Shown here one piece after another: positions 29,930-43,994 of a stretch of 64,000 nt of DNA (position 1 is its first letter; the number at the start of each line of letters is the position of its first letter). The position numbers and the translations under genes are program-made. The notes below the pieces were generated by a model. It was not told where the DNA came from, did no database searches, and was given only the letters and a program-made list of their open reading frames with translations. The stretch spans positions 62,001 to 126,000 of the forward strand of contig AP018698.1 in NCBI GenBank assembly GCA_004001285.1, written 5' to 3'. Source of the DNA: Arthrobacter sp. MN05-02. Its GTDB lineage: Bacteria; Actinomycetota; Actinomycetes; Actinomycetales; Micrococcaceae.

Positions 29930-30147
29930 CACGGGCCCATTCTCGCGCAGAATTGGCGTACGGTCGACCTCACTCATTGGGATGCAAGAGGTGTGACAGA
30001 TTGTGCTGGTTGGAGGGGTGTGAAATCGCTGGGTGACGACGGAGGAGGAAACGCGATGGGAGCACCGTGGAGACCAGTACGATTGGTCCATCGAATTCTC
30101 GATGCGGTTGTGCACATGAGAATGGGCGGTGAGTAACACGGTTTTCG

Positions 30148-30262
30148 TTATCCACGGGTCGTTCGATTGTGTGGAACCGCTGACGGACGTTATCCACCAG
30201 GTGGGCAGCGCAGAGACGCAACGGTTATCTCGGAGCTATCCACGTGTGGGCAACGTCCGTCA
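30148..30262. other. candidate oriT or origin: inverted repeats and DnaA-box-like sites
   Basis: In the region 5' of the relaxase gene, TGACGGACGTT (30181-30191) and its exact complement (30252-30262) flank 60 bp. Within and beside it, TTATCCAC occurs at 30148-30155 and 30190-30197, and CTATCCAC at 30236-30243, spaced 42 and 46 bp. TTATCCAC is one base short of the DnaA box TTATCCACA. Position next to a MobF gene favours oriT; the boxes could instead mark a replication origin. No nic site was identified. Confidence 0.45.
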
Positions 30263-31257: not shown

Positions 31258-32745
31258 CTACTCGGCGGCGTACTCTTCCGCGATCATCTCCTCTTCGTCG
31301 GCGTGGACTTCCTCGAACGTCTCGCCGCGCTCGGTGTCCTCGGTGCCCTTCGTGTCTTCGATATCCTCGCCGGGTTCGGTGGTCTGGTTCGCGCTGTCGA
31401 GGATGATCTGCTCGACCTCGCTCGGCGTGTACCCCCACGTGACCAACTGGGTGAGGTAGGTCAGGTGGCTTGCGCTCGGTGAGCGCCACGAGTCCTTGGT
31501 GATCGTCTTCTCAAATCCAGCGCAGACCAGCGCGATCAGGGGCACCTCGGGGCGGGTGGTGGTCTTCGCGACGTGGTCGCGGAGCGGGTTCCATCCCCAC
31601 GATTCCTTGCCCTCGATCTTCGCTCCGGCCATGTCAGCAGCCACGGCTGACTCGTAGCCGCTGGCGACCTGAGAGTGGTGGGTCAGGGCGTGGACGGTGA
31701 AGTACTGCCAGCCCTTCGGTGCCTGCTTCTTCGCCAGCAGGGACCGAACGAAATCGCGCCGGACGACCGTCGCCGATTCCATGGCCTTGTTGTTGGCGAT
31801 CAGAGTCTTTCGCTCGGCCTTCTGCTCATCGTTCATTGGTCCCTTCGGGGCCGCTGTGCTCGTGGCGTGCCGGAGCGTGAAACCCAGTTCCTTCCATCCG
31901 GTGACGACCGGGATGGTGCTGTACTCGCCGTGGTAGTTGTTGGCGATGCAGAAGGCGTTCGCGTCCTCGTCCGTGGCTCGCTCTCCGTCGGCTCGAAGCA
32001 GACCGGTGACGACCACGTTCTCGTCCGTCGGGTAGTAGCCGTAGCTCACATCTTTAACGACGACGGTCCCGGCGGCTTCCAGTTCGGCCACCAGTGCGGC
32101 GCGGGCTTCCTCGCGTGCGCGCTTGTCGCGCATCTGCTGGGCGACGTGCGCGAGCATGTCCGGCTCGTCCGCGATGACCGATTCCAGTTCCTCGGTGGCG
32201 TCCTCGTCGCCCTCGAACTCAGCCAGCACGAGAGCTTCCTCGATGGTGCGGCCCTTGGACAATGCGGCCTCACCTGCGGCGCTCTTCTTGGCCTTCAACG
32301 CTCCCTCAACGGTGGTTTTGGCGCGTCCGGTCTTCTTCGCGATCTGCGCCGCGCTCACGCCGAGCAGGGACAGCTGGTGGAAAGCGTCGGCTTCGTCCGC
32401 GTCGGTCAACGCGGACCGTTGAACGTTTTCCACGACCTGCGTGGTGATCCGCTCGGCTTCCTCGGGGCCAGCGACGACCATGACCGGGATCAGGGGTGTC
32501 TCGGCTTCGACCGCGCCGCAGGTGCGGCGCTGTCCCATCAGGACATGCACGGTGGTGGTTTCGTCGCCGTTGTCCCGGCGGTGCGCGATCACGGGTTCGA
32601 TCACGCCGTGCTCCTTGATGCTCGCGACGAACTGGGGCGTCAGGGCGGCGTCCTTGCGCACGTTCACGTCGACGGTGAGCGTGCGCGGGTCGATCATTTC
32701 CAGCGTCGGGGCGGAGGTCGGCTGAGTAGTCAGCTGAGCGTTCAT
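31258..32745 (-). CDS. ParB/RepB/Spo0J-family nuclease-domain protein
   Basis: A 495-residue protein. Residues 15-110 form a ParB N-terminal domain (IDPRTLTVDVNVRKD, HGVIEPVIAHRR, VLMGQRRTCGAVEA, VVENVQRSALTDADEADAF). The HTH segment follows (LGVSAAQIAKKTGRAKTTVE). The C-terminal 300 residues are a separate region seen in actinobacterial plasmid ParB-like proteins, ending in an acidic tail. Here the usual G-E-R-R becomes G-Q-R-R. It may act in plasmid partition or as a CTP-binding DNA-binding protein. No ParA is adjacent. Translation is preceded by the first copy of the repeated leader, with AAGGAGC 8 nt before the ATG. Confidence 0.88.
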   Translation of the reverse strand: MNAQLTTQPTSAPTLEMIDPRTLTVDVNVRKDAALTPQFVASIKEHGVIEPVIAHRRDNGDETTTVHVLMGQRRTCGAVEAETPLIPVMVVAGPEEAERITTQVVENVQRSALTDADEADAFHQLSLLGVSAAQIAKKTGRAKTTVEGALKAKKSAAGEAALSKGRTIEEALVLAEFEGDEDATEELESVIADEPDMLAHVAQQMRDKRAREEARAALVAELEAAGTVVVKDVSYGYYPTDENVVVTGLLRADGERATDEDANAFCIANNYHGEYSTIPVVTGWKELGFTLRHATSTAAPKGPMNDEQKAERKTLIANNKAMESATVVRRDFVRSLLAKKQAPKGWQYFTVHALTHHSQVASGYESAVAADMAGAKIEGKESWGWNPLRDHVAKTTTRPEVPLIALVCAGFEKTITKDSWRSPSASHLTYLTQLVTWGYTPSEVEQIILDSANQTTEPGEDIEDTKGTEDTERGETFEEVHADEEEMIAEEYAAE

Positions 32746-33113
32746 GGGGTTGTGCTCCTTGGTTGCAGTGGTGAGGTCGGGGCCCTTGGTGACCAGCAGT
32801 GGACCCTTCCCCCCGTTGTTTTTGCCTGCTGGCGAGCTCGCTCGCTCGTCCCCGACGGAGCACCGTCAACCCGCAGGGCGGGGCCGGCTAGGAAACCTCG
32901 AAGGAAATAAGCGACGCAGGAGCGCCGCAGAGGTTTTTGGCCGGCTACGTCGCGTCAGCGATTGACGGTGTGGAGCGGGGGCGCATAATCCGCAGGACAG
33001 CAGCAAAAAACATATGGACGGGATGCGACGAAGGAGCAGCCTGGCCGAACAGGCCGGAGCGAAGCGAGAGGACCATTGCCCTGGTTGGAGCGCCAGCGAC
33101 AATCCTGGGAAGC
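32746..33113 (-). repeat. repeated ~370-bp 5' leader, copy A
   Basis: One of three similar leaders (others at 40391 and 43621), each ending directly at a start codon. Reading toward the gene it has a perfect 9-bp outer stem (32962-32970 with 32861-32869), an inner two-part stem (32930-32945 with 32883-32899), a GCGGG hairpin, and repeated loop sequence GCTCCTKCGTCGC. The 3' end is AAGGAGC plus ATG. Copies B and C have different bases in the same stems that still pair. It is probably a structured RNA leader; a DNA-level role is not excluded. Confidence 0.75.
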
Positions 33114-33187
33114 ACTAGAACCGCCGGGCACCCACAAGCGCCAGCACTATTCTTGTGGCTTCCGATGTTTCGGGCTTGAATCGTTCG

Positions 33188-33340
33188 ATGGTTCCCACGC
33201 GATTGAATACGAGCGCATTACCTGACACTTTCGTGCTGATCATTACTGGGATTGCCCTGGCGTCGATCGCCTTGATCGTGGTGTGGGCAGTGGTGATGGA
33301 CCGCGTGGATAAAGCAAAGGGTCCGCGATCGAAGAAGTAA
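33188..33340 (+). CDS. small single-pass membrane protein (tentative)
   Basis: A 50-residue frame with one strong hydrophobic helix (TFVLIITGIALASIALIVVW) and a charged tail ending GPRSKK. No Shine-Dalgarno site is obvious. The start could also be at 33155. The hydrophobic helix followed by a basic end is protein-like, but expression is uncertain. Confidence 0.35.
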   Translation: MVPTRLNTSALPDTFVLIITGIALASIALIVVWAVVMDRVDKAKGPRSKK

Positions 33341-33377
33341 GGCAGGACTAGATCGTGCACGCAGCTCCGATCTTCGG

Positions 33378-33563
33378 TCAGGCCTTATAGGCGTGGTCGG
33401 GGCAGTAGTAGCGGCCGGCGTCGACGGTGATCATCCGGTACAGCCAGCCCTCGGGTAGGGGGCGGCCCTCGTCGAGGAGTTTCGTGGTGGCGCGGCAGAT
33501 GCAGCACTGCGCCAGGGATGGGGTCCCCAGTGGCTGCGGCGTCCGTGGTGTCTTTGGTGTCAC
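33378..33563 (-). CDS. small zinc-ribbon-like protein
   Basis: A 61-residue protein with C-C-I-C near residue 20, then EGWLYRMITVDAGRYYCPDHA at the end. The C-x2-C ... GW ... CPxH layout is shared with the 90-residue protein at 41128-41400, so the two are likely distant paralogues with a zinc site. GTG start. Function is unknown. Confidence 0.55.
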   Translation of the reverse strand: MTPKTPRTPQPLGTPSLAQCCICRATTKLLDEGRPLPEGWLYRMITVDAGRYYCPDHAYKA

Positions 33564-33572
33564 TGTGGCGGG

Positions 33573-33800
33573 TTAGTCCTCGAAGAAGCGGCGTGCCTCG
33601 TCGGACGCTTCGGCGACGTCGACGGGCCCGAAGCCGCTCGTTCCGCTCGTCAACGTGCTGTCAGCCTCGAGCCGGTCCTCGAGGAGGTTCTCGAGCGTGG
33701 GCGCCTGCAGCTCGGGCAGGTGCAGCTGCAGGTTCTCTCTGAGGTCAGGGCTCAGAGCAACGGGCAGGTCGGGGTGCTCGATGTAGTCCACGGGTCCCAT
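33573..33800 (-). CDS. small acidic hypothetical protein
   Basis: A 75-residue acidic protein (ALSPDLRENLQLHLPELQAP, then ENLLEDRLEADS). AGGAAGAG sits at a good distance before the ATG. It has no recognised domain. It precedes the zinc-ribbon-like gene by 9 bp on the same strand, so the two may form a unit. Confidence 0.55.
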   Translation of the reverse strand: MGPVDYIEHPDLPVALSPDLRENLQLHLPELQAPTLENLLEDRLEADSTLTSGTSGFGPVDVAEASDEARRFFED

Positions 33801-34112
33801 GATCGTCTCTTCCTGGTTGATGAATTGGTGTCACTGTACGTGCCGGCCCTGTCACTTCACCTGCCAGTTCTCGGGGCGCTGTCCCCTGCTTGTCGCCTGG
33901 TGGTCCTGCGCGGTACGTGCAGCTCGGGGCTGGTCCTGGTGGTCGCGCCAGCGTGTATGGCGGCGGCCGGGGGAGATGTTCCTATAGACAAGCCTGCATT
34001 CAAAGCAACATGAGAACGCACCTCGAGGCTTCAGGGGACACCGACTTCTTCGCGCCACATAGATACACCTCGTTCATCAAGTGCAATCAACTATTGTTGC
34101 TCCCTTCTTGGG
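33801..34112. other. intergenic stretch between divergent units
   Basis: About 310 bp between the small acidic gene (minus) and the TetR gene (plus). It carries their promoters and the TetR palindrome at its right edge. Short frames here have no family support. Confidence 0.4.
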
Positions 34113-34134
34113 CTAGGTAGACTGGTCTACCTAG
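34113..34134. promoter_or_regulatory. TetR-type operator
   Basis: Perfect 10-bp inverted arms CTAGGTAGAC and GTCTACCTAG with a 2-bp centre, 17 bp before the TetR start codon. Position and perfect symmetry suggest autoregulation by the TetR protein. Confidence 0.8.
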
Positions 34135-34150
34135 TCCAAGAAAGGTCGCA

Positions 34151-34723
34151 ATGCGAAGTGGTGTGGGATCGGCGCGGGAGCGGTTGCTAGGTGCGGCGTC
34201 GCGGTTGTTTTACGCCGATGGTATGGCAGCGACGGGTATTGACGCGATCACGGCGGAGGCGGGGGTGGCGAAGATGAGCCTGTACAACAACTTTTCCTCG
34301 AAAGAGGAGCTTGTGTTGGCGTATATCGATGCCCGCCACGAGGAGTGGTTGGAGCTGTACCGTCATCGGGCTGCGAATGCTACCTCGCCCGTGGACGGGG
34401 TGATGGCGGTGTTTGACGCCTACATCGATCACGCGTCGGTCGCCTATCTGCATGGCTTCCGAGGGTGTGGGCTGCTAAATGCGGCCGCGGAGCTTCCCGT
34501 GGGAGCCCCTGGCAGGGATGCGGTGCGCCGCCATAAGGAGCAGGTTGAGTCGATCCTGGTCGGGCACCTTGCCGGGATCGTGTCCCAGTCCGAGGCCGAG
34601 GAAACAGCGGAGCATCTGACGTTTCTGCTCGAAGGGGCGATGAGCCGGGCGGGCCTCGAAGGCCAGCCCGACCGACTCGAGCGCGCCAAGGCCATCGGCC
34701 GTGAACTGGTCGGTTCCCTGTGA
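34151..34723 (+). CDS. TetR-family transcription regulator
   Basis: A 190-residue TetR protein. The N-terminal HTH reads RERLLGAASRLFYADGMA, then IDAITAEAGVAKMSLYNNFSS and KEELVLAYI. The ligand-binding half contains FRGCGLLNAAAELP, where many TetR_C members have a conserved G-C. AAAGG precedes the ATG. Its stop overlaps the start of a frameshifted EamA transporter gene (TGTGAA context, 4-bp overlap), so the pair was probably a regulator/efflux unit. The perfect palindrome upstream is its likely operator. Confidence 0.9.
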   Translation: MRSGVGSARERLLGAASRLFYADGMAATGIDAITAEAGVAKMSLYNNFSSKEELVLAYIDARHEEWLELYRHRAANATSPVDGVMAVFDAYIDHASVAYLHGFRGCGLLNAAAELPVGAPGRDAVRRHKEQVESILVGHLAGIVSQSEAEETAEHLTFLLEGAMSRAGLEGQPDRLERAKAIGRELVGSL

Positions 34724-35669
34724 ACCGGCACCGCCTCGTCGGCCTCGGTGCGGTCAGTGTCACGTCCCTGCTCTGGGGGACGACGGGAACCGCCGCGACC
34801 TTCGCCCCGGGCGCCGGCCCGCTGGCGATCGGTGCGGCCGCCCTGGGTGTCGGCGGCCTGTTGCAGGCCCTCATCGCCCTCCCCGCGCTGAGGGCCGCAG
34901 GCCCGGCGCTGCGCGCGAACCTGTCAACAGTCCTCCTGGGCGCGGTGGCGGTCGGGATCTATCCCCTCGCGTTCTACAGCTCCATGCACTACGCCGGCGT
35001 CGCCGTCGGCTCGGTGGTGTCCCTGGCCTCCGCGCCCCTGGCCTCCGGAGTCCTCGAGCGGCTCATCGACCGACACCCGCTGAGCCGGTGGTGGATGCTG
35101 GCCGCGGGACTCGGCGTCCTGGGCAGCGCGCTGCTGTGCCTGTCGAAGATGCAGGGCCCGGCCGGGACGCCGCCGGAACCGTCATCGGCACGGGACTGGG
35201 CCTGGTCGCAGGCGGCACCTACGCCACCTACTCGTGGGCGGTCCATCGCCTCATGACCCGCCGGATCAGCCGGGCCGCCTCGATGGGTGCCGTCTTCGGC
35301 GGGGGAGGGCTCCTGCTGATGCCGGTCCTCCTCATCACCGGCGCCCCGCTCATCGCCACCACGGAGGCGTTCCTGGTAGCCGCCTACATGGCACTGGTGC
35401 CGATGTTCCTCGGCTACCTGCTGTTCGGGTTCGGCCTCACCCGCATCTCCGCGAGTACCGCCACCACCGTGACCCTCACGGAACCGGCGATCGCGGCGAT
35501 CCTCGCCGTCGTCATCGTCGGGGAACGGCTCGCCGCCGCAGGCTGGATCGGCCTGGGCATCATCGGCGGAGCGCTGCTGATCCTCGCCTTCGCCCCAACC
35601 AACGCGGAGCAGCCTGCGAACCGTCTCCGGGTGCGTGAACGCCAGCCGACGCTCGACGCGACAACCTAG
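34720..35669 (+). pseudogene. EamA/DMT-family transporter, frameshifted
   Basis: The first ~150 residues (LLWGTTGTAATFAPG, VVSLASAPLASGVLERLIDR) read in one frame and the remaining ~165 (GTGLGLVAGGTYATYSWAVH, TLTEPAIAAILAVVIVGERL) in another. Together they make a normal ten-helix EamA exporter. The switch lies at 35163-35166, where restoring one G to the GGG run joins the frames (AGDAAGTVIGTG). It is either a recent inactivation or a sequence error. The GTG start overlaps the TetR gene. Confidence 0.8.
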
Positions 35670-35741
35670 AGTGCACCCGTCATTTCATTGCGCTGCCCTT
35701 CCCTTATGTCCCCCGCTTGAAGAGAACGGATTGACCACGTC

Positions 35742-36803
35742 ATGGCCCCTGATACTCAGCCAACTATCGGCCGCCCGTCATCGATTCATCCTGTCGTGGA
35801 GACGGTCGACTATCATACCGCCGGTGAGCCGTTCCGTATCGTGCCAGCTCCTCCGGTAGCGATCCCCGGTCGGACTGTCGCTGAACGGCGCGCGAACGCA
35901 ATCATGGACTCGGACATCGACGGCCTGCGTCGGCTGCTGTGTTTCGAGCCACGCGGCCACGCGGACATGTATGGGGGCTTCATTACCGCGCCCGATGACG
36001 CCGGCGCACATTTCGGTGTTCTGTTCTGGCACAAAGATGGCTTCTCGACCGCCTGCGGGCACGGCACCATCGCACTGGGCGTGTGGGCCGTCGCTTCGGG
36101 CCTGGTGGCCGTCGATCCCAGCGGGTTAACAGATGTTGTCATTGATGTTCCTTCAGGCAGGGTCACAGCCCGCGTACACACAACCACCGATGGTCGCGTG
36201 ACGGAGGTCGACTTCGTGAACGTACCAAGCTCCCTAGTCGCCGCCGGTCTGCCACTATCGACCAGCCGCGGAGAAACTTTAGTAGACCTGGGATGGGGCG
36301 GAGCCCTTTATGCCTGCGTCGACGCAGCGTCCCTCGGCCTACAGGTCACCCCGAAGAACCTGACCGATCTCATCAGCCTCGGTCGCGAGATCAAAGCGGC
36401 CCTGGCTACTGATCCCCGCATCGAACACCCGACGGACCCCCGACTCAGCGGCGTCTACGGGACCATCATCTTCGAGGATCTGGGCACCCTTCCTACCGGA
36501 GAACTGCACCAACGCAACGTGACGATTTTCGCCGACGGGCAGGTCGACCGGTCTCCTTGCGGATCAGGTTCGGCAGCACGCGTCGCAGTACTAACCGCTA
36601 CGGGCCGACTCACCAACGGTCAGACCCTGGTCCATGACTCGATCGTCGGATCCCGTTTCACCGCCCTCGCACGCACCCGCACCACCGAGCACGGCAGGGA
36701 CGCTGTCATACCCGTCGTGACCGGAACCGCGCACCGCGTCGGTACTTCAAGCTTCGAGGTCGACCCGCACGACACCCTCGTTCCAGGATTCGTGCTGCGA
36801 TGA
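35742..36803 (+). CDS. proline racemase / 4-hydroxyproline epimerase family enzyme
   Basis: A 353-residue member. HTAGEPFRIV is near residue 25, FSTACGHGTIALG carries the first catalytic Cys, and DRSPCGSGSAARVAVL the second. Both Cys are present, so racemase/epimerase chemistry is favoured over the trans-3-hydroxyproline dehydratase, which has Thr at one position. It overlaps an ornithine cyclodeaminase-like gene by 4 bp (ATGA). Epimerase and cyclic-imine reductase pairs of this type are typical of hydroxyproline or D-proline catabolism. The exact substrate is not fixed. Confidence 0.88.
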   Translation: MAPDTQPTIGRPSSIHPVVETVDYHTAGEPFRIVPAPPVAIPGRTVAERRANAIMDSDIDGLRRLLCFEPRGHADMYGGFITAPDDAGAHFGVLFWHKDGFSTACGHGTIALGVWAVASGLVAVDPSGLTDVVIDVPSGRVTARVHTTTDGRVTEVDFVNVPSSLVAAGLPLSTSRGETLVDLGWGGALYACVDAASLGLQVTPKNLTDLISLGREIKAALATDPRIEHPTDPRLSGVYGTIIFEDLGTLPTGELHQRNVTIFADGQVDRSPCGSGSAARVAVLTATGRLTNGQTLVHDSIVGSRFTALARTRTTEHGRDAVIPVVTGTAHRVGTSSFEVDPHDTLVPGFVLR

Positions 36804-37747
36804 CAACCCTCCGCTATCTGGACGAGAATGCCGTCACCGCGGCCCTGGCGCCAGCTGCAGCAGTGGACGCCATAACCGCAGCCCTCACCCACGGGTATGA
36901 CCCCGCAGCCGATACCGCACGAACATCAGCTGCCACGCGAAAGGGACATTTCCTCCTGATGCCCTCCGAAGTCGGTGACCATGTCGGCGTGAAAGTAGCC
37001 ACCGTCGCACCGGACAACCCTGCCATCGGCCAGCCGCGCATTCAGGCCGTTTACCTCGCGTTCAATGCCGCAACCCTCACCCTGCAAGCCCTACTAGATG
37101 GAACCGCGCTGACAACACTGCGCACGCCCGCTGTGTCCATCGCCGCAATCCGTCCGGCCCTTCAGCGCTTCACCCGAGCTTTGCGAGTTGTCGTATTCGG
37201 TGCCGGCCCTCAAGCAATCGGGCACGTCCGCACCCTTGCCGCAGTAACCAAGGAACCTCTCGCGTCAGTCACGTTCATCGTGCGCACCCCCGCCACAGCT
37301 ACCGCCGCACACCCATACGGTCAGGTCGTCAGAGCCGACACGCCTGCAGCCAACACGGCGTTAAGCTCTGCGCACGTGGTGATTTGCGCGACCAGCGCCC
37401 GCACGCCCCTCTTCCCGGCAGACGCGATCTCCGCCCAGACAATCGTGATCGCCGTCGGATCCCACCAGCCCGACGCCCGGGAACTGGACAGCGCCCTGCT
37501 CGCCAAGGCCACCGTCATCGTCGAGGACATCGACACCGCGCTCCGAGAAGCAGGCGACATCATTCTCGCCCACGCCGAAGGCGCCCTTCACGTAGAGAAC
37601 CTCATCCCCATGAAGGGTGTCATCGACCACTCCACGACGATTCCCGAGGACAGACCAGTGGTTTTCAAGAGCGTCGGCATGTCATGGCAGGACCTGGTCA
37701 TCGCTACCGCAGTCCTCGAATCCCATACCCCTGCTATGAAGTCATGA
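36800..37747 (+). CDS. ornithine cyclodeaminase/mu-crystallin family reductase
   Basis: A 315-residue protein. The N-terminal part ends GVKVATVAPDN and AVYLAFNAATLTLQALLDGT, then comes the Rossmann motif VVFGAGPQAIGHV (about residue 130) and VICATSARTPLFPAD. In this setting it most likely reduces a cyclic imine such as 1-pyrroline-2-carboxylate to proline rather than deaminating ornithine. It is co-translated with the racemase-family gene. It ends 38 bp from the IS110 transposase gene, which may have cut off further pathway genes. Confidence 0.85.
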   Translation: MTTLRYLDENAVTAALAPAAAVDAITAALTHGYDPAADTARTSAATRKGHFLLMPSEVGDHVGVKVATVAPDNPAIGQPRIQAVYLAFNAATLTLQALLDGTALTTLRTPAVSIAAIRPALQRFTRALRVVVFGAGPQAIGHVRTLAAVTKEPLASVTFIVRTPATATAAHPYGQVVRADTPAANTALSSAHVVICATSARTPLFPADAISAQTIVIAVGSHQPDARELDSALLAKATVIVEDIDTALREAGDIILAHAEGALHVENLIPMKGVIDHSTTIPEDRPVVFKSVGMSWQDLVIATAVLESHTPAMKS

Positions 37748-37784
37748 CATCCTCAAGCACTGCCCCGCCGAACACACTGATTCT

Positions 37785-38888
37785 TTAGATGTCGGGACTA
37801 ATTGGTACGAACTTCTTGGGTTCTAGGTCCTTCCTAAGTGCGTGATACAGCTCGCGTGCAACGTAGCGCTTGAGGCTCCGAATGGCATCGGCGGTGGAAT
37901 GGCCAAGCGCCTTTTTCCGGTCACGGTAAGCCTGAGATCGAACGTCGTAACGGAGCCGGCAAATAACGATGAGGTAGATGATCTTGTTGGCTTGTCTGTT
38001 GCCGCCACGATGCAGACGCATACGGCTCGTTTTCCCTGATGCCACCGGGATTGGTGCGACGCCGCAGAGCCTGGCGAATGCTGCTTCGCTAGGGAACCGT
38101 TCGATGTTCTGACCAGCTGTTACCAGCAGCTGGGCGGCGCTCACTGGACCCACCTGAGGCAGCGCCATGAGCGTCGGTGCGACGTCATTCGCGAGTCTGG
38201 TGAGGTGCTTGTCCGTCGCGTTGATCTCGGCCGTCAGGTCGAAGATCCGGCGGCCGAGGTCCCTCAGTGCGTACTTCACCGCCTGCTCCGGCTCGTGTAA
38301 CCGCGCCATATCCGGGCGAAGCGACTTCGCCTGCATGGCCTTGGCCTGCAGGGTTCTAGCTGTCAGCCGGTGACGCAGTTCCTCCGGCGCTGTTATAAGG
38401 ACATCGCGCAGCTGGACTAGTGCGGCTGTCCTAGACTTCACGGCAGAATCCCGCACGAGGTGCAGATTTCGGATGGCTTCCACCGCGCCGGAGGTGTCTT
38501 TCGCAGGGGATGAGCACTCCCCTGACATAACTTTCCGGGCTGCAGCCTCGGCATCGATTGCGTCGCTCTTACCGGACCGGCTACGTACGAGGGCGTGGCC
38601 GCGGTTGACCTCTACGACGTCGACTCCGGCCACCAGAAGGTGGCGGGTGAGGCCGGCACCATAGGACCCAGTGCATTCAACGCCGACGGCGTTGATGATC
38701 CCAAAGCTTGCCGCCCAGTCCAGCAACTCCTGATAGCCCCGGGCGTCTGTAGTGAAGCGCCGCGCCCCGAGCATCACCCCGCGCTCATCGAGCACTGCGG
38801 CGTGGTGCACCTTCGAGTGGGTGTCTACGCCGACGGTAATTGTCCTGACTGACTGTTCCATCGCTGCTGTGGTTGCTGTTGTCGTCAT
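37785..38888 (-). mobile_element. IS110-family transposase (insertion sequence core)
   Basis: A 367-residue DEDD transposase with AGGAGCAGGA before its ATG. The RuvC-like N-terminus has VGVDTHSKVHHAAVLDERG, then VGVECTGSYG, NRGHALVRSRSGKSDAIDAE (catalytic acidic residues). The C-terminal transposase_20 region has LMALPQVGPVSAAQLLV, AFARLCGVAPIPVASGKTSR, the conserved Ser region and RSQAYRDRKKALG. IS110 elements lack clear terminal inverted repeats, so exact ends are not called. The non-coding part lies upstream of the gene (about 38889-39060). The frame looks intact and potentially active. Confidence 0.93.
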
Positions 38889-38899
38889 TCCTGCTCCTA

Positions 38900-39060
38900 A
38901 CGGTTACTCATGAGCGAAGGGCGACCACGGTTGACCGGGCCGGGCGGACAAAGCACTGAACAGCGAAGGCGCACGTTCCTATCAAGTCACAACCCCGTCC
39001 GGCCCGGTCGCCCACGGTAAGCGGCAGGAGACGAAACACCGACAGATCTCCCCGTGGACC
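38900..39060 (-). ncRNA. candidate IS110 bridge RNA
   Basis: IS110 elements encode a structured RNA in the non-coding end before the transposase. On the minus strand here, GACCGGGCCGG and CCGGCCCGGTC form a perfect 11-bp stem. GGGCGACC and GGTCGCCC give an alternative outer pairing, and the segment between is 60-70 nt of loop sequence. Position and structure fit; guide loops and element ends were not assigned. Confidence 0.5.
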
Positions 39061-39211
39061 GAACCAGCTACTGCTGGCCGTCAGCTAGCGGCCAAGTCAG
39101 GAATCCCCTCCCCTGCCGTGGCCTATTCTCCTCAGTGCGTGCGACGGAGGCCGCCGCCATACACCCAAGGAAACGCTGGGGGCTCCTGACCTGGGTGGCT
39201 GGGTACGACAA

Positions 39212-39249
39212 GAGGGCCGGACTCCCGTGGGGGTGAGTGTCCGGCCCTC
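39212..39249 (-). terminator. terminator after the DUF4192 gene
   Basis: Perfect 11-bp arms GAGGGCCGGAC and GTCCGGCCCTC, with a 16-nt loop, about 40 bp past the minus-strand stop at 39290. Confidence 0.75.
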
Positions 39250-39289
39250 GGCCTGTGGGTCTAGCTGGTCCCGTTACCAGGCTTGCCTG

Positions 39290-40390
39290 TTAGTGGTGAT
39301 CGCGCTGGTGGTACGCGGTGCGTTCGTTTTGCGCGGCCAGCGGGAGGATTCCGCGGCCGACCATTTCCCGCATCAGCCGTGAGAGTCGGTGCTGGGAGTC
39401 GGTCTCGATGGCCTTGTCGAAGTAGGCGGCGGCGACAGAGGACGATCCGCGGTACCAGCGTAGCCAGCCGAGGAAGCAGAACAGCGGGGCGCGGTCCTCG
39501 AGGGGCGTGTACGCGAGGACCTTGACTAGCAGCTCCTCGGTCGCTTCCACGCGGGACCAGTCGAGCTGTCCCTCGTACCTGCCGGTCATGACCTGCTGGT
39601 AGGTGGTTTCGTCGTCGGCGCCGCTGATGGCGTCGGCCATGATCCGGTCCCGGATGGTCTTGATCAGCAGGTAGCCGGTCAGCTCACAGGCCGCCTGCTC
39701 GGTGGTGTCCTCGCCGATGGCCTCATTCCAGAGTGCGCGGGCGGCGCACATTGCGTGGTGTCCGAAGTCCAGCGCGGCGGGTGCTCCGAGCCGATCCACC
39801 CAGTAAGCGGCGTCGGAGATCGTGTTGTGTGCATCGTCGCTGCCGATGAACGCGGGGTCGGCGGTCATGTTCGCGGGGTGTTCCTGCGTGCTGTAGCCGC
39901 GATAGACCAGCTCGGCGTTCATGGCGCTGTCGCGGATCTCGTCGGTGGGGTTGAGCTCACAGCACCCGCTCTCTTCGCAGAAGTAGGGCGTCCATCCCCT
40001 GTCGGTGACAAGCCATCCGTTGCGGATGCTCATGCCGACGTGCTCCAGCTCGGCCTCGATGGCCTGCGCGTAGGCCATGTAGGGCTTGGCGTCGGGGTTC
40101 TCACCCGACTGGGCGGCTTCGGCTACCTCGTTCGTGTAGATGAACAGCAGGACGCCGTCGGCGGCGGTGTCCGCGAGCAGGTAGTGCATGACGCCCTGCG
40201 CGAAGTCTGCCGGGCGGGTCAGGTCGGCGGGGGCGTCGAGCCTCAGGGTGGCGCCGGTGGTGTTGCCGCGCATGGTGACGAAGGCGAAGGATTCGCGCGG
40301 CTGGAAGCCGAGTGCGCTGGGGACGAATGCGAGCAGGTCAGCGGCCGTCGTGGCGGTCAGCTGGTGGTTGTGCTGGGTGTTCTCGTTCAT
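39290..40390 (-). CDS. DUF4192 domain protein
   Basis: A 366-residue protein typical of actinobacterial chromosomes and plasmids. The N-terminus TTAADLLAFVPSALGFQPRES followed by FAFVTMRGNTTGATLRLD is the DUF4192 signature. The C-terminal half (YLLIKTIRDRIMADAIS, LLVKVLAYTPLEDRAPLF, WLRWYRGSSSVAAAYFDKAI) is a TPR-like helical region. The ATG follows the repeated leader copy B, with AAGGAGC 7 nt upstream. The frame is open 80 codons further upstream through the leader, but that part is treated as untranslated. DUF4192 has no established biochemical function. Confidence 0.88.
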   Translation of the reverse strand: MNENTQHNHQLTATTAADLLAFVPSALGFQPRESFAFVTMRGNTTGATLRLDAPADLTRPADFAQGVMHYLLADTAADGVLLFIYTNEVAEAAQSGENPDAKPYMAYAQAIEAELEHVGMSIRNGWLVTDRGWTPYFCEESGCCELNPTDEIRDSAMNAELVYRGYSTQEHPANMTADPAFIGSDDAHNTISDAAYWVDRLGAPAALDFGHHAMCAARALWNEAIGEDTTEQAACELTGYLLIKTIRDRIMADAISGADDETTYQQVMTGRYEGQLDWSRVEATEELLVKVLAYTPLEDRAPLFCFLGWLRWYRGSSSVAAAYFDKAIETDSQHRLSRLMREMVGRGILPLAAQNERTAYHQRDHH

Positions 40391-40758
40391 GGTGTTGCTC
40401 CTTGGTTGCAGTAGTGGTGTCGGGCCCCTTGGTGACCAGCAGTGGACCCTTCCCCCGTTGTTTTTTGCCTGCTGTCGAGCTCGCTCGCTCGTCCCCGACG
40501 GAGCCGTGTCCAACCCGAAGGGCGGAGGGCCCGGCAAATAAGGGAGGAAATAAGCGACGCAGGAGCGCCGGACGCATTTGGTGGGCCCGGCGTCGGCGCA
40601 GCCGATTGACGCGGTGGAGCGGGGACGCATAATCCGCAGGACAGCAGCAAAAAGACCCGGACGGGATGCGACGAAGGAGCAGCCTGGCCGGAACAGGCCG
40701 GAGCGAAGCGAGAGGACCGTTTCCCTGGTTGGAGCGCCAGCGACAATCCTGGGGAAGC
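40391..40758 (-). repeat. repeated ~370-bp 5' leader, copy B
   Basis: Nearly identical to copy C and clearly related to copy A. Inner stem: 40527-40532 pairs with 40583-40588 (GGGCCC with GGGCCC) and 40535-40539 with 40576-40580 (CAAAT with ATTTG), with a 2x2 internal loop. Outer stem: 40504-40513 with 40606-40614, with one mismatch and one bulge. A UUCG-type hairpin sits in the 3' part. It ends at the DUF4192 start codon. Confidence 0.78.
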
Positions 40759-40808
40759 CTGCAAACCAGAGGGACCAACACCCGCCGGCCCGGGGTGGTT
40801 AAAGAGGT

Positions 40809-40842
40809 GGGAGTGGCAGCTGCACCACCAGCTACCACTCCC
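40809..40842. terminator. bidirectional hairpin after the small ParB-like gene
   Basis: Arms 40809-40822 and 40829-40842 pair over 14 bp with one mismatch and a 6-nt loop. GTTTTCTT follows on the plus strand. It lies past the minus-strand stop at 40874 and before leader copy B. Confidence 0.78.
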
Positions 40843-40873
40843 GTTTTCTTGCGTTTCCCTGCAACAAGGAAAT

Positions 40874-41131
40874 CTAGTGGGCCCGGTTCTTCTCTTCCTC
40901 GAGAGTCCGTCGGCCTGGCCGGAGGGCCCCCGGTGCTACCGGTTCCCACTTCCTGCCCTGGTTGTGCTTGCGCTGCAGGCGCTTCACCTCGCGCATCACA
41001 GCTGCTTCGATCAAGTCTGTCACAGACCGGTACCCCTCGGCCTGCCCTGCGGCGAGGAACGCAGCCCGCACCTGGTCCGCGTCGGTCTGTGTGAAGTACG
41101 GCGTGAAAGACGCCGGCTTGCGCTTACTCAC
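40874..41131 (-). CDS. small ParB/centromere-binding-like protein
   Basis: An 85-residue protein. The central AGQAEGYRSVTDLIEAAVMR has the spacing of a ribbon-helix-helix DNA-binding protein, followed by LQRKHNQGRKWEPVAPGALRPGR. That tail is characteristic of the short ParB-type proteins of actinobacterial plasmids (H-N-x-G-x-x-x-x-P-V-x-x-G-x-L-x-x-G-R). Such proteins usually follow a ParA gene, but none is adjacent here. Its start overlaps the preceding gene (ATGA). Confidence 0.75.
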   Translation of the reverse strand: MSKRKPASFTPYFTQTDADQVRAAFLAAGQAEGYRSVTDLIEAAVMREVKRLQRKHNQGRKWEPVAPGALRPGRRTLEEEKNRAH

Positions 41132-41400
41132 CTGCTACTCCTCGTTGTCGGATGCTCCTGGCCGTGATGGCGGTTGATGCCGCTGCCCTGTTCGCCTAGC
41201 TCGCCCCACTTGTAGATCCTGATGATGTCCTGCCAGCCCTCCGGCAGCCGGTTCCGGTGTGCCGGGCAGAGGATGATCTGCTCATCGGCGATGTAGTCCC
41301 AGCCCTTCGGCGTCCCATCCCCCGTGAGCGCCAGTGGGGAGGTTCGTCCGCATTCGGCGCACTCGGCCACCTGGTCACTTGCTGGTCGATTCGCGGGCAT
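41128..41400 (-). CDS. small zinc-ribbon-like protein
   Basis: A 90-residue protein. AECAECGRTSPLALTG supplies C-x2-C, and GWDYIADEQIILCPAHRNRL supplies C-x2-H, a likely treble-clef or ribbon zinc site. It resembles the 61-residue protein at 33378-33563. It overlaps the small ParB-like gene by 4 bp and is probably co-expressed. The function is unknown. Confidence 0.65.
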   Translation of the reverse strand: MPANRPASDQVAECAECGRTSPLALTGDGTPKGWDYIADEQIILCPAHRNRLPEGWQDIIRIYKWGELGEQGSGINRHHGQEHPTTRSSR

Positions 41401-41528
41401 CCGTCCAGTGTGTCAGGGAACCTGTCAGCGCTACGTTCTACGCTTCGTTGTGGAGCCCTGTCCTCAGGTGTCCGTCGTAGTCCATCTACCGTGTGCCCTG
41501 GGCAGGACTTCATGCGTGCTCCCCTAGT

Positions 41529-41906
41529 TCACCGGTAGCCCTGCCGGTTGATGGCGTTCTGTGCCTGTGCCAGTTCGGCTCCGAGCTGCTTGGCGAGGGC
41601 AGCGGCACGGGTCAGGTGATCGGTCGCTGTGGCGATCGACTGGACCGGGTCCCGGCCGTCGTCCTCGTAGACGTCGTGGGTGTCCAGAGACTTCCCGAGG
41701 CCGGCGGCGAGCTGGTTGAGCGCCTGCGGCAGCATGTACTCGACGCCTTTGAGGTTCCCCAGCACCCTGTAAGCGACCGGGGCCGGAATGGACCTGCCGG
41801 GCAAGCTCTCATGGCAGAGGATGCGCAGCTCCTCATAGATCGTGTCAGCGGCCTCTACAATCACAGGTGTTTCGTCATCCGTCATAGACGTTTCCTCGTC
41901 TGACAT
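41529..41906 (-). CDS. hypothetical plasmid protein
   Basis: A 125-residue acidic, helical protein (AADTIYEELRILCHESLPG, PAPVAYRVLGNLKGVEYMLP, HLTRAAALAKQLGAELAQAQ). AAAGGAT precedes the ATG at 41906; the longer frame upstream has no support. No domain is recognised, though similar small helical proteins sit beside ssb genes on actinobacterial plasmids. It lies between the zinc-ribbon gene and ssb on the same strand. Confidence 0.65.
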   Translation of the reverse strand: MSDEETSMTDDETPVIVEAADTIYEELRILCHESLPGRSIPAPVAYRVLGNLKGVEYMLPQALNQLAAGLGKSLDTHDVYEDDGRDPVQSIATATDHLTRAAALAKQLGAELAQAQNAINRQGYR

Positions 41907-42020
41907 GGTGATCCTTTCGCTCTGATGCATCGAACGTACTCGGTCAATGGTTCTGATCGGTGTATTGGCGGCCACCGTAGGGCTGGCCACTGACGCCTGA
42001 TGGTGCCGAGGTGCAGGATG

Positions 42021-42050
42021 CGGGGTGGCCGGACTCGACCGGCCACCCCG
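42021..42050 (-). terminator. terminator after ssb
   Basis: Perfect 12-bp arms CGGGGTGGCCGG and CCGGCCACCCCG with a 6-nt loop, 9 bp past the ssb stop at 42059. Confidence 0.85.
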
Positions 42051-42058
42051 TCACACGC

Positions 42059-42589
42059 TTAGAACGGCGGTTCGCTCTCGGGGCCGTTGCCCCACCCGCC
42101 GGCACCTGTTGCTGCGGGGGCTCCCCACGGATCATCGGCCGGCTGCTGCTGCCACGCGGCATTGCCCTGGTTGCTGTGTCCGCCGTGCTGCGCTCCCCCA
42201 CCCTGGCCGTTACCGGAGCTGGCCCGCTGGGTGCGGGTGACTTTCGCGGAGGCGTAGCGCAGGCTCGGTCCGACCTCGTCGACCTCGAGTTCCATGACGG
42301 TGCGCTTCTCGCCTTCCTTGGTGTCGTAGCTGCGGGACTTCAACCGGCCCTGGGCGATGACGCGGGTTCCCTTGGTCAGTGTCTCGGCGACGTTCTCGGC
42401 CGATTCGCGCCAGACATTGCAGCGCATGAATAGGGTTTCGCCGTCCTTCCAGTCGTTGCTCTGCCGGTCGAACGTGCGCGGGGTGGAGGCGATGGTGAAG
42501 TTGGCGACCGCTGACCCGCTGGGGGTGAAGCGGAGTTCGGGATCCGCGGTGAGGTTGCCGATGACGGTGATGATGGTTTCTCCGGCCAT
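42059..42589 (-). CDS. ssb: single-stranded DNA-binding protein
   Basis: A 176-residue SSB. The OB fold spans residues 1-110 ([79 protein letters not shown]). A Gly/Gln/Trp-rich linker follows, and the acidic tip ESEPPF corresponds to the usual D-D-x-P-F partner-binding tail. It is probably the plasmid's own SSB, used in replication or conjugation. The start at the ATG (MAGETI) is preferred over a TTG three codons upstream. Confidence 0.95.
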
Positions 42590-42703
42590 GATGCTCAACT
42601 GCCTTATCTATGGATGCTGGTGGTGTCGTTGATTTCAGTGCTTCTGTGTCTCCGTACTCACGTACTTACAGAGTCCGGTACTCCCGCATGTGCACGCGGG
42701 TCA

Positions 42704-42961
42704 TTACTGCGTGGAGTCGAGGGCAATGACCTGGCTGATCTTGCTGGGGTTCAGGCCGGACCAGTGGTCCTCGCTGCCGTCCTTTTCGTACACGACGACC
42801 GGTGCCTGGCTGTAGCCGAGCTCGTCGGTGATGTAGGCCAGCGCCTGGTCGTTGGTGGTGATGTCCACGGTGGTGAACTGGACGCCAGCGGCGTCGAACA
42901 GTTCCTTCGTCTTCTTGCATCCGAAACAGCCCGATGGCTTCTCGTAGATGGTGATGGTCAT
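42704..42961 (-). CDS. glutaredoxin-like NrdH-type redoxin
   Basis: An 85-residue thioredoxin-fold protein with the redox motif C-F-G-C at residues 12-15, the cis-Pro region SQAPVVVY, and a late DHWSGLNPSKI helix. It resembles NrdH, the electron donor of class Ib ribonucleotide reductase, although NrdH usually has C-x-Q-C. No nrdIEF genes are nearby. It lies upstream of ssb and may be a stand-alone plasmid-borne redoxin. Confidence 0.85.
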   Translation of the reverse strand: MTITIYEKPSGCFGCKKTKELFDAAGVQFTTVDITTNDQALAYITDELGYSQAPVVVYEKDGSEDHWSGLNPSKISQVIALDSTQ

Positions 42962-43137
42962 GGCGCTCAGTCCTTGGTTACGTATCGGTATTAGTGAGAG
43001 TCGACTGCTTGTGCTGCTGGTACTAATTTTATCGTTTATTCATCTGAATAAACAGCACTTTTCGCGCTATTGTGTATCTTCCGGGGTCTGATGCATGCCG
43101 TTGGCGTCGGTGATCCCGGCCGGGCAGAAGGGCTGGG

Positions 43138-43166
43138 CCGCACCCCGCCCGGTGGGCGGGGTGCGG
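43138..43166 (-). terminator. terminator after the 145-residue unknown gene
   Basis: Perfect 13-bp arms CCGCACCCCGCCC and GGGCGGGGTGCGG with a 3-nt loop, 17 bp past the stop at 43183. Confidence 0.85.
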
Positions 43167-43182
43167 CTGTGGTCAGCGACTT

Positions 43183-43620
43183 CTAGCACCGGTGGATGCA
43201 TCCGTAGGGCTTGGTCAACTCGTCGTCCAGCTCCTCGGCCGTGGCGGGCAGGTGAGCCGGCCGGTCAGCTTGTCCGTGCTTCCAGTACCAGAAAACCTCG
43301 GCGGTGATCGCCTTGTGGCAGGCGTCCTCAGCGCGGTACCAGTGCGTGTAGGTGTCACCCTCGATGTAAGTCCCGTACCCGTACAGGGTGCCCGTCTCGT
43401 CGTGGTGGGTGGCGGTGGCGAAGAAGACGTAGGGCCAGGATCCGGCGTCCCATCCGTCGGTCCCCCACGCGCCCATGACCTTCCACGGACTGCCGGTGAG
43501 GGTGTCGAGCCAGTCGTACCCGTCGCCGGTGCGGTCATCCACGGGCAGGACCGGGGCGTTGACGGTTTCCTCGGTGTCCTTCGTGGTGGTGCTGACCAGA
43601 ACTGCGGTATCGGTGTTCAC
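43183..43620 (-). CDS. hypothetical protein downstream of leader copy C
   Basis: A 145-residue protein from a GTG start with AAGGAGC 8 nt upstream. It is rich in Trp, Tyr, Asp and His (DDRTGDGYDWLDTLTGSPW, FFATATHHDETGTLYGYG, THWYRAEDACHKAITAEVFW) and ends YGCIHRC. No domain is recognised. Its only clear context is the repeated leader it shares with the ParB-like and DUF4192 genes, which suggests common regulation. Confidence 0.7.
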   Translation of the reverse strand: MNTDTAVLVSTTTKDTEETVNAPVLPVDDRTGDGYDWLDTLTGSPWKVMGAWGTDGWDAGSWPYVFFATATHHDETGTLYGYGTYIEGDTYTHWYRAEDACHKAITAEVFWYWKHGQADRPAHLPATAEELDDELTKPYGCIHRC

Positions 43621-43994
43621 AGTGTTGCTCCTTGGTTGCAGTAGTGGTGTCGGGCCCCTTGGTGACCAGCAGTGGACCCTTCCCCCCGTTGTTTTTGCCT
43701 GCTGGCGAGCTCGCTCGCTCGTCCCCGACGGAGCCGTGTCCAACCCGAAGGGCGGAGGGCCCGGCAAATAAGGGAGGAAATAAGCGACGCAGGAGCGCCG
43801 GACGCATTTGGTGGGCCCGGCGTCGGCGCAGCCGATTGACGCGGTGGAGCGGGGACGCATAATCCGAAGGACAGCAGCAAAAACGTCGTAGACACGTCAG
43901 GGTCGGGTGCGACGAAGGAGCGCCCGACCCTCATCAGGCCGAAGCGAAGCGCAGGACCTTTGCCTGGTCGGAGCGCCAGCGGAACCCCGGGAAG
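43621..43994 (-). repeat. repeated ~370-bp 5' leader, copy C
   Basis: Nearly identical to copy B over the ~240 bp next to the gene. It diverges in the distal third, where it forms a perfect 9-bp hairpin (43899-43907 with 43923-43931) whose loop holds TGCGACGAAGGAGC. Copies A and B keep that loop sequence but have different flanks. It ends at the GTG of the 145-residue protein gene. Confidence 0.78.

Follow-up and report, generated by a model that had tools for sequence, protein, structure and literature searches.

The stretch analyzed here, referred to below as the window, comprises 64,000 nucleotides of Arthrobacter sp. MN05-02 (contig AP018698.1, positions 62,001 to 126,000). It contains three homologous copies of a conserved element, termed A (32746-33113), B (40391-40758) and C (43621-43994), each of which reaches the start codon of a minus-strand gene within a few bases. 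Each copy consists of a hairpin and of a leader that connects it to the gene. The hairpins are described on the plus strand, which lies opposite the genes and is presumed to be the strand transferred in conjugation (T-strand). The features of the three elements and the genes that follow them are:

32819..33013, plus strand (presumed T-strand), hairpin A, from fold, covariation and model match
32819-32831 with 32998-33009, plus strand, base stem of hairpin A, from the predicted fold
32832-32844, plus strand, mini-hairpin of hairpin A opposite the -10 box, from the predicted fold
32902-32927, plus strand, conserved apical loop of hairpin A, from conservation
32962..32989, plus strand, promoter-like boxes of A, TTGACG (32962-32967), 16 nt and CATAAT (32984-32989), from box scan and alignment
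32746..32818, minus strand, leader from hairpin A to the ParB-like start codon, with the AAGGAG site inside
31258..32745, minus strand, ParB-like gene (Pfam ParB_N), after A
40462..40657, plus strand, hairpin B, from model match, fold and alignment
40606..40633, plus strand, promoter-like boxes of B, TTGACG (40606-40611) and CATAAT (40628-40633), from box scan and alignment
40391..40461, minus strand, leader from hairpin B to the DUF4192 start codon
39290..40390, minus strand, DUF4192 gene, after B
43692..43887, plus strand, hairpin C, from model match and alignment
43836..43863, plus strand, promoter-like boxes of C, TTGACG (43836-43841) and CATAAT (43858-43863), from alignment
43621..43691, minus strand, leader from hairpin C to the GTG start of the 145-codon gene
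43183..43620, minus strand, 145-codon gene with a GTG start and no Pfam match, after C

In blastn searches against the window, B is 86% identical to A over 383 columns (E 1.7e-117) and 91% identical to C over 371 columns (E 1.9e-142). The hairpins of B and C share 191 of 196 positions, so that among the window copies compensatory change can be read only from A compared with B and C; hairpins A and B align with 168 identities, 14 mismatches and 27 gap columns. The three copies abut the start codons of the ParB-like, DUF4192 and 145-codon genes as a first-pass annotation of the stretch had described, the stem letters that it quoted for A and B are present, and AAGGAGC is common to all copies at 8, 6 and 6 nt from the start codon in A, B and C. 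Genome searches and a covariance model (R1) found these three copies and no others in the whole genome, and a search of Rfam for a described cis-regulatory RNA family gave no match at the elements.

The 170 matches to the apical loop in our sampled loci divide by their 3' arm into two groups, F1 (134) and F2 (26), with 10 unassigned. Covariation was assessed in 30 non-redundant copies (less than 90% identity), after two of 32 sequences had been dropped for a double copy (locus L005) and a tandem loop (L092). The structure set left out four loci with a contamination-like species label (L035, L063, L039 and L049) and kept L024, labelled Rhodococcus. Among 64 base pairs, 29 are changed on both sides, and 90.2% of cells pair, a percentage flattered by the derivation of the consensus from the same sequences. 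The covariation score of 0.284 compares with 0.130 in shuffled alignments (none of 500 as high) and with 0.052-0.080 when the partners are slid, which bears out the earlier proposal that the structure is selected. The base stem comprises 13 pairs, two of which are mismatched in 12 of the 30 copies.

Folded as single-stranded DNA (ssDNA), the strand opposite the gene reaches a z score of -5.3 for hairpin A (0 of 200 shuffles as low) and of -2.35 for hairpin B (4 of 200), and its mean z is -4.4 for F1 and -4.6 for F2. The gene strand folds well also (mean z -3.8 for F1 and -2.9 for F2). This, together with a covarying structure just before start codons, speaks for the cis-acting RNA leader proposed in the first-pass annotation, in which transcription from an upstream duplex promoter would yield an RNA copy of the hairpin that regulates the genes. 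Before control for composition the fold was lower on the strand opposite the gene in 30/30 and 25/25 sequences; after a dinucleotide-shuffle control that strand still folds better in 22/30 and 20/25, a point against the RNA leader. As a proof of DNA versus RNA the strand bias of folding was dropped, since composition explains most of it, and it serves as weak support. Counts of G-T against A-C on a structure predicted without wobble pairs were not used as such a proof either; they stand at 64 and 25 over all pairs, and at 41 and 20 in covarying pairs, for which 66 and 48 are expected from column shuffles.

The 3' arm of the hairpin contains a conserved pair of promoter-like boxes on the strand opposite the gene. 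The -35-like hexamer is TAGACG in 12 copies, TTGACG in five and one of nine other forms in the rest of the 30. It is followed in all 30 by an ungapped 16-nt spacer and, at the place of the -10 box, by [T/C/G]AnnAT. Scored against TTGACA/TATAAT, the site has a mean of 9.03/12, compared with 7.32 for the best site in mononucleotide shuffles; it is the best of its strand in 29/30 copies and scores at least 9 in 26/30. In wider, redundant sets the -10 hexamer fits TAnnAT in 84/84 copies that had been found with a stricter pattern, and fits [T/C]AnnAT in 108 of 112 copies with a GGACAGC anchor (the 170 loop matches minus 20 at locus edges and 38 lacking the anchor). The gene strand carries no outstanding sigma70-like site in the 30 hairpins, its best scoring 6.87/12 against 7.32 in shuffles. 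The 200 nt before the hairpin score 6.72 (shuffles 7.07; 0/29 reach 9/12), and the leader scores 6.73 (shuffles 6.90; 1/30 reaches 9/12). The conserved pair on the other strand inside the hairpin and the scarcity of such sites on the gene strand argue against the RNA leader.

The boxes are integrated into the fold. Four of the six bases of the -35 box lie in a covarying helix (helix 4), and the -10 box begins where helix 3 ends and opens a stretch of 14 nt (21/30) or 15 nt (9/30) without partners in the other arm. In this open stretch, which extends to the base stem, only a local 3-bp hairpin is predicted (helix 11), taking in the last T of the -10 box. The template side of the loop is 15-17 nt long and is predicted to be able to form a mini-hairpin (helix 2). 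If the -10 box is counted as -12 to -7, the open stretch spans -12 to +2/+3, approximately the bubble of a bacterial open complex. In a T-strand that enters a cell alone, the 5' arm would run on directly into the template of the gene, and the 3' arm, read from loop to base, would correspond to the non-template strand. From strand polarity, an ssDNA promoter therefore needs its -35 box nearer the loop and its -10 box nearer the base, both on the 3' arm, and the arrangement matches; the predicted T-strand stem would thus restore both boxes on the appropriate arm and with the appropriate polarity.

The orientation of the elements is tied to that of the conjugative relaxase. Two further features of the window are relevant here:

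25148..30139, minus strand, MOBF relaxase with a TrwC domain and helicase-type AAA domains
30130..30200, plus strand, putative origin of transfer (oriT) upstream of the relaxase, an imperfect inverted repeat followed by ATTGTGT/GGAACC (30166-30178)

The relaxase is on the same strand as the three downstream genes, and approximately 2.6 kb separate it from element A. For 39 of the 54 plasmid records that contain the element, a relaxase was among the matches listed, and in all 39 the best copy of the element and the relaxase are on one strand (six, all with 5542-5543 bp between the two, probably represent a single plasmid). In 33/39 the element is upstream of the start of the relaxase gene by no more than 20 kb, where 7.0 would be expected. 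On genome contigs, taking the first listed relaxase and the nearest element of each, the two are on the same strand in 40/41 and the element is upstream in 31/41; contigs with several copies have all of them on one strand in 29/31. Gene orientation in the region at large is mixed, because approximately 57% of genes (55/97) are on the relaxase strand in stretches of two of these plasmids taken from feature tables. Relaxosome genes are described as typically lying in the region that enters the recipient last (PMC11541004). The elements are therefore on the first-entering side and point toward the origin, as do ssb, a ParB-like gene and psiB of plasmid F, which are read toward oriT/traM. They thus occupy the leading region, near oriT on the side away from the relaxase gene, and precede putative early genes.

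The putative origin in the window recalls the nick site of R388 (ATTGTGT, compared with ATTGTCT in R388), whose sequence is given as GGTGCGTATTGTCT/ATAG (PMC4814116). In seven of 16 regions upstream of MOBF relaxases, the template strand contains a block that combines an imperfect inverted repeat with ATTGTGT or ACTGTGT. In MOBP plasmids, 5/5 have an inverted repeat upstream of mobC followed by a conserved AGCTTGC on the template strand; one genome of another order has ATCTTGC in its place. The published MOBP nick motif is (C/T)ATCCTG(C/T), beside an inverted repeat (PMC3772185). Its exact hexamer ATCCTG is absent upstream of mobC in 4/5 regions and is found once, away from the inverted repeat, in the fifth, and the reading of AGCTTGC is post hoc, having been made only after alignment. 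Conserved oriT-like blocks of MOBP elements at L007:18124 and L148:2257 combine an inverted repeat with AGCTTGCTCC or ATCTTGCTCC on the strand opposite the relaxase.

These motifs bear on a comparison with EGeRS1 of the pLS20 family in Bacillus, conserved structured leaders that also precede establishment genes on a Gram-positive conjugative plasmid. An establishment leader of the EGeRS1 type would be a conserved inverted-repeat region with the transferred strand as its non-template strand. The position before the genes is similar, the size is of the same order, and several copies occur per plasmid (PMC8708921). The authors of that study found no recognizable promoter in the fold of the pLS20 leaders; the elements described here have conserved boxes at a fixed place, and their nick-like motifs, from which the transferred strand is deduced, point to the template strand. 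We consider a leader of this type highly improbable.

The RNA leader leaves both the opposite-strand boxes and the link to relaxase orientation unexplained, and neither it nor a duplex promoter requires that boxes and hairpin form one object. A hairpin made of the transferred DNA strand would explain the boxes, the hairpin and the orientation together. We therefore regard the RNA leader as unlikely: of the earlier interpretation, the selected structure and the several downstream plasmid genes are supported, and the identification of the folded molecule with the gene's own RNA leader is not. Most likely it is the transferred DNA strand, opposite the gene, that functions, folded as a promoter like Frpo of plasmid F, and it is probable that the elements are single-strand promoters through which establishment genes are expressed early and transiently in the recipient.

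Single-strand promoters are known from plasmid F and ColIb-P9 (PMC9849209), where folding of the T-strand reconstitutes the -35 and -10 boxes from which early genes are expressed (PMC9849209, PMC11541004). A corresponding mechanism can be proposed for the window plasmid. In duplex form, the elements in its leading (establishment) region would be silent in the direction of the genes. During transfer the plus strand, the template of the minus-strand genes, would enter the recipient first as a single strand, and each element would fold back on itself. The stem toward the loop would present a mostly double-stranded -35 region (TTGACG), and 16 bases further on the -10 box (CATAAT) would begin a stretch of 14-15 nt without partners in the other arm, from approximately -12 to +2/+3, leaving the promoter pre-opened. 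The 13 pairs of the base stem would form the duplex ahead of the polymerase. Recipient RNA polymerase could then start near the base and leave the hairpin onto single-stranded template, making an mRNA in which the conserved leader (approximately 85 nt here) is followed by the ribosome site and the first genes. Once the strand is converted to duplex DNA, the hairpin would be lost and the promoter turned off.

Several observations weigh against a single-strand promoter. On contig C36 of genome G276 the element and the relaxase are on opposite strands, and pairs of copies on opposite strands occur on contig G119:C13 (19 kb apart) and on chromosome G024:C1 (2.5 Mb apart). The nick-like block was absent from 9/16 MOBF regions, and the nicked strand was deduced after the fact, from two types of motif that both appear to point to the template strand as the one transferred. 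Most of the T-strand fold advantage is composition, the excess amounting to 1.3 kcal for F1 and 3.0 kcal for F2. The boxes of F2 and of the other order are weaker, TTGCGT-16-GATGAT (F2, 7/12 by hand) or GATCAT, and of 18 further copies, taken from outside the main set, five do not fit the pattern TTG-N16-nAnn(A/G)T. Of 22 covariance-model matches examined in other genomes, seven precede an unrecognized reading frame and three precede none. A consensus scan of the Frpo regions of F found no clear boxes (the best sites score 8/12 on the T-strand and 8/12 and 7/12 on the gene strand); this positive control failed, so the scan is not validated on a known case. Finally, the idea of an ssDNA promoter was rejected for pLS20, where the transferred strand is the non-template strand (PMC8708921, section 4.1).

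Among the 133 loop matches for which a downstream gene was found (37 of the 170 had none in the sampled loci), the gene encodes DUF4192 in 40, a ParB-like protein in 37, a relative of the 145-codon product in 25, DprA in 11, an IS110 transposase in nine and other products in 11. The remaining 12 of the 22 covariance-model matches examined in other genomes precede genes that are DUF4192-like (4), glutaredoxin-like (4), ArdC-like (3) and ParB-like (1). Pfam confirms examples of ArdcN (PF08401), ParB_N, DUF4192, Glutaredoxin and DprA (PF02481) downstream of elements. All three ArdC-like cases are in genomes of another order, and Pfam describes ArdC as an anti-restriction factor. The downstream genes thus include types known or plausible for establishment, namely ParB-like, DprA and, in another order, ArdC.

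This gene content bears on the possibility that the hairpin is a single-strand origin or primer site, at which RNA polymerase would be recruited only for priming of the complementary strand and expression would be secondary. Such a site would share the fold and promoter anatomy; Frpo is reported to do both, and the title of Masai and Arai 1997 names primer RNA synthesis besides transcription. Priming would have no need of a ribosome site, a start codon or a recurring small set of gene families, and we judge a primer site to be very unlikely.

The elements seem to be in print already. Mihasan and Brandsch 2016, as cited in PMC10494377 and PMC6305408, reported DNA repeats 5' of Duf4192, DprA and ParB on 12 related Arthrobacter/Paenarthrobacter plasmids. 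We equate these repeats with our elements by description only, the gene set DUF4192, DprA and ParB being the one found here. According to the citing papers the repeats were treated as a marker of common descent and were connected with partitioning and conjugation (PMC10494377). That connection would suit parS-like partition repeats bound by a ParB-like protein, and the IS110 transposase genes after some copies would suit a mobile repeat. Neither would require a place at the start codon, a fixed -35/-10 spacing or a bias toward the relaxase strand, and of all the explanations considered we find this one the least probable. The single-strand promoter is a mechanism proposed here for repeats that had probably been seen before.

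The family is distributed well beyond one plasmid. Matches by blastn occur at 123 places in 49 plasmid records, and at 135 places in 54 records at E 0.01, all of them named Arthrobacter, Pseudarthrobacter, Paenarthrobacter or Citricoccus. Among genomes sampled at one per species, a scan for the apical loop identified at least 117 stretches; the counts from loop scans are lower bounds. The model R1, built from 30 F1 copies, matches 43/149 genomes and 16/32 genera of the family, 14/297 genomes of the order (six outside the family) and 9/394 genomes of the class. Three of the last are in one genus of another order, in which 7/49 genomes have matches. The distribution over 49 plasmid records and 43/149 family genomes argues against a recent segmental duplication in one plasmid. 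No match was found in phage records at E 1e-5, nor the exact loop pattern in viral contigs, so that nothing points to a phage feature. The family belongs to actinobacterial plasmids and integrative elements. In three loci (L077, L049 and L112) the F2 element is followed on its own strand, at a distance of approximately 5-6 kb, by a MobF-type relaxase-like gene, and these elements may therefore mark integrative elements.

The likeness to Frpo1 and Frpo2 of F and to ssi of ColIb-P9 is in the leading-region position, in genes read toward the origin and in the predicted T-strand fold with its boxes. Neither R1 on the leading region of F (best E 0.46) nor blastn of the 30 copies against F (best E 0.048) gave a match, and the elements belong to Actinomycetota and precede a different set of genes (DUF4192, DprA, glutaredoxin). 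Their -10 box lies in an open loop facing a mini-hairpin of the template strand. Homologues of Frpo or candidates have been proposed in other conjugative elements (PMC11541004, PMC12826799), and passages of the latter contain none of the terms Actinobacteria, Actinomycetota and Arthrobacter. Titles and the beginnings of abstracts in the open-licence literature yielded no single-strand promoter in Actinobacteria or Arthrobacter plasmids, which is weak evidence of absence. By term, PMC9024699, PMC12614216, PMC11730352 and PMC12715929 contain only the Frpo of F, reference-list entries or no mention.

We lean slightly toward a broader proposal, that Actinomycetota have an independently evolved class of single-strand promoters, unrelated in sequence to Frpo and present, in two or more orders, on MOBF and MOBP plasmids as well as on integrative elements. 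Its members would share a pre-opened build, with the -35 region and the downstream DNA duplex, the stretch from -10 to approximately +2/+3 open, and the template side folded into a mini-hairpin. The establishment proteins expressed first, possibly with anti-defence functions, would then include DUF4192, the 145-residue protein and glutaredoxin. In the literature consulted, the documented single-strand promoters are those of F and ColIb-P9, and for pLS20, a Gram-positive plasmid family, the idea was considered and rejected (PMC8708921). If the proposal is correct, a second, unrelated class would suggest that transcription of the incoming strand evolved more than once. The element would also provide a sequence tag for establishment genes on many uncharacterized actinobacterial plasmids, and would mark out DUF4192 and the 145-residue family as proteins that may act early in anti-defence or in the handling of ssDNA. 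The open-bubble architecture offers a directly testable model of how RNA polymerase starts on a folded single strand.

Some further observations concern the surroundings of individual copies. Between A and B the window contains plus-strand cargo genes (34701-37747; an EamA transporter, a proline racemase and an ornithine cyclodeaminase) and an IS110 transposase gene (37785-38888, minus strand). An IS110-family transposase gene directly follows the F1 hairpin in nine sampled loci (L014, L022, L031, L051, L052, L086, L093, L097 and L107). In 11 rows of the anchor set, four of them among the IS110 loci, GGAATCTC(A/T)ATGATGTTGTCAACGG stands in place of the hairpin's 3' base arm. It may be that the insertion sequence targets the hairpin or carries it along. 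In L070, L073, L084, L094 and L111, F2 hairpins remain before DUF4192 genes for which no more than a C-terminal remnant was found.

The 26-nt apical loop is present as a tandem duplicate at L092:3903-3955, and the hairpin at L005:20979-21531 seemingly contains part of a second copy as a nested element. Copies in L024, L035, L039, L049 and L063 are on contigs labelled Rhodococcus, Vibrio cholerae, Spirosoma or Sporosarcina, and are possibly Arthrobacter-type DNA contaminating those assemblies.

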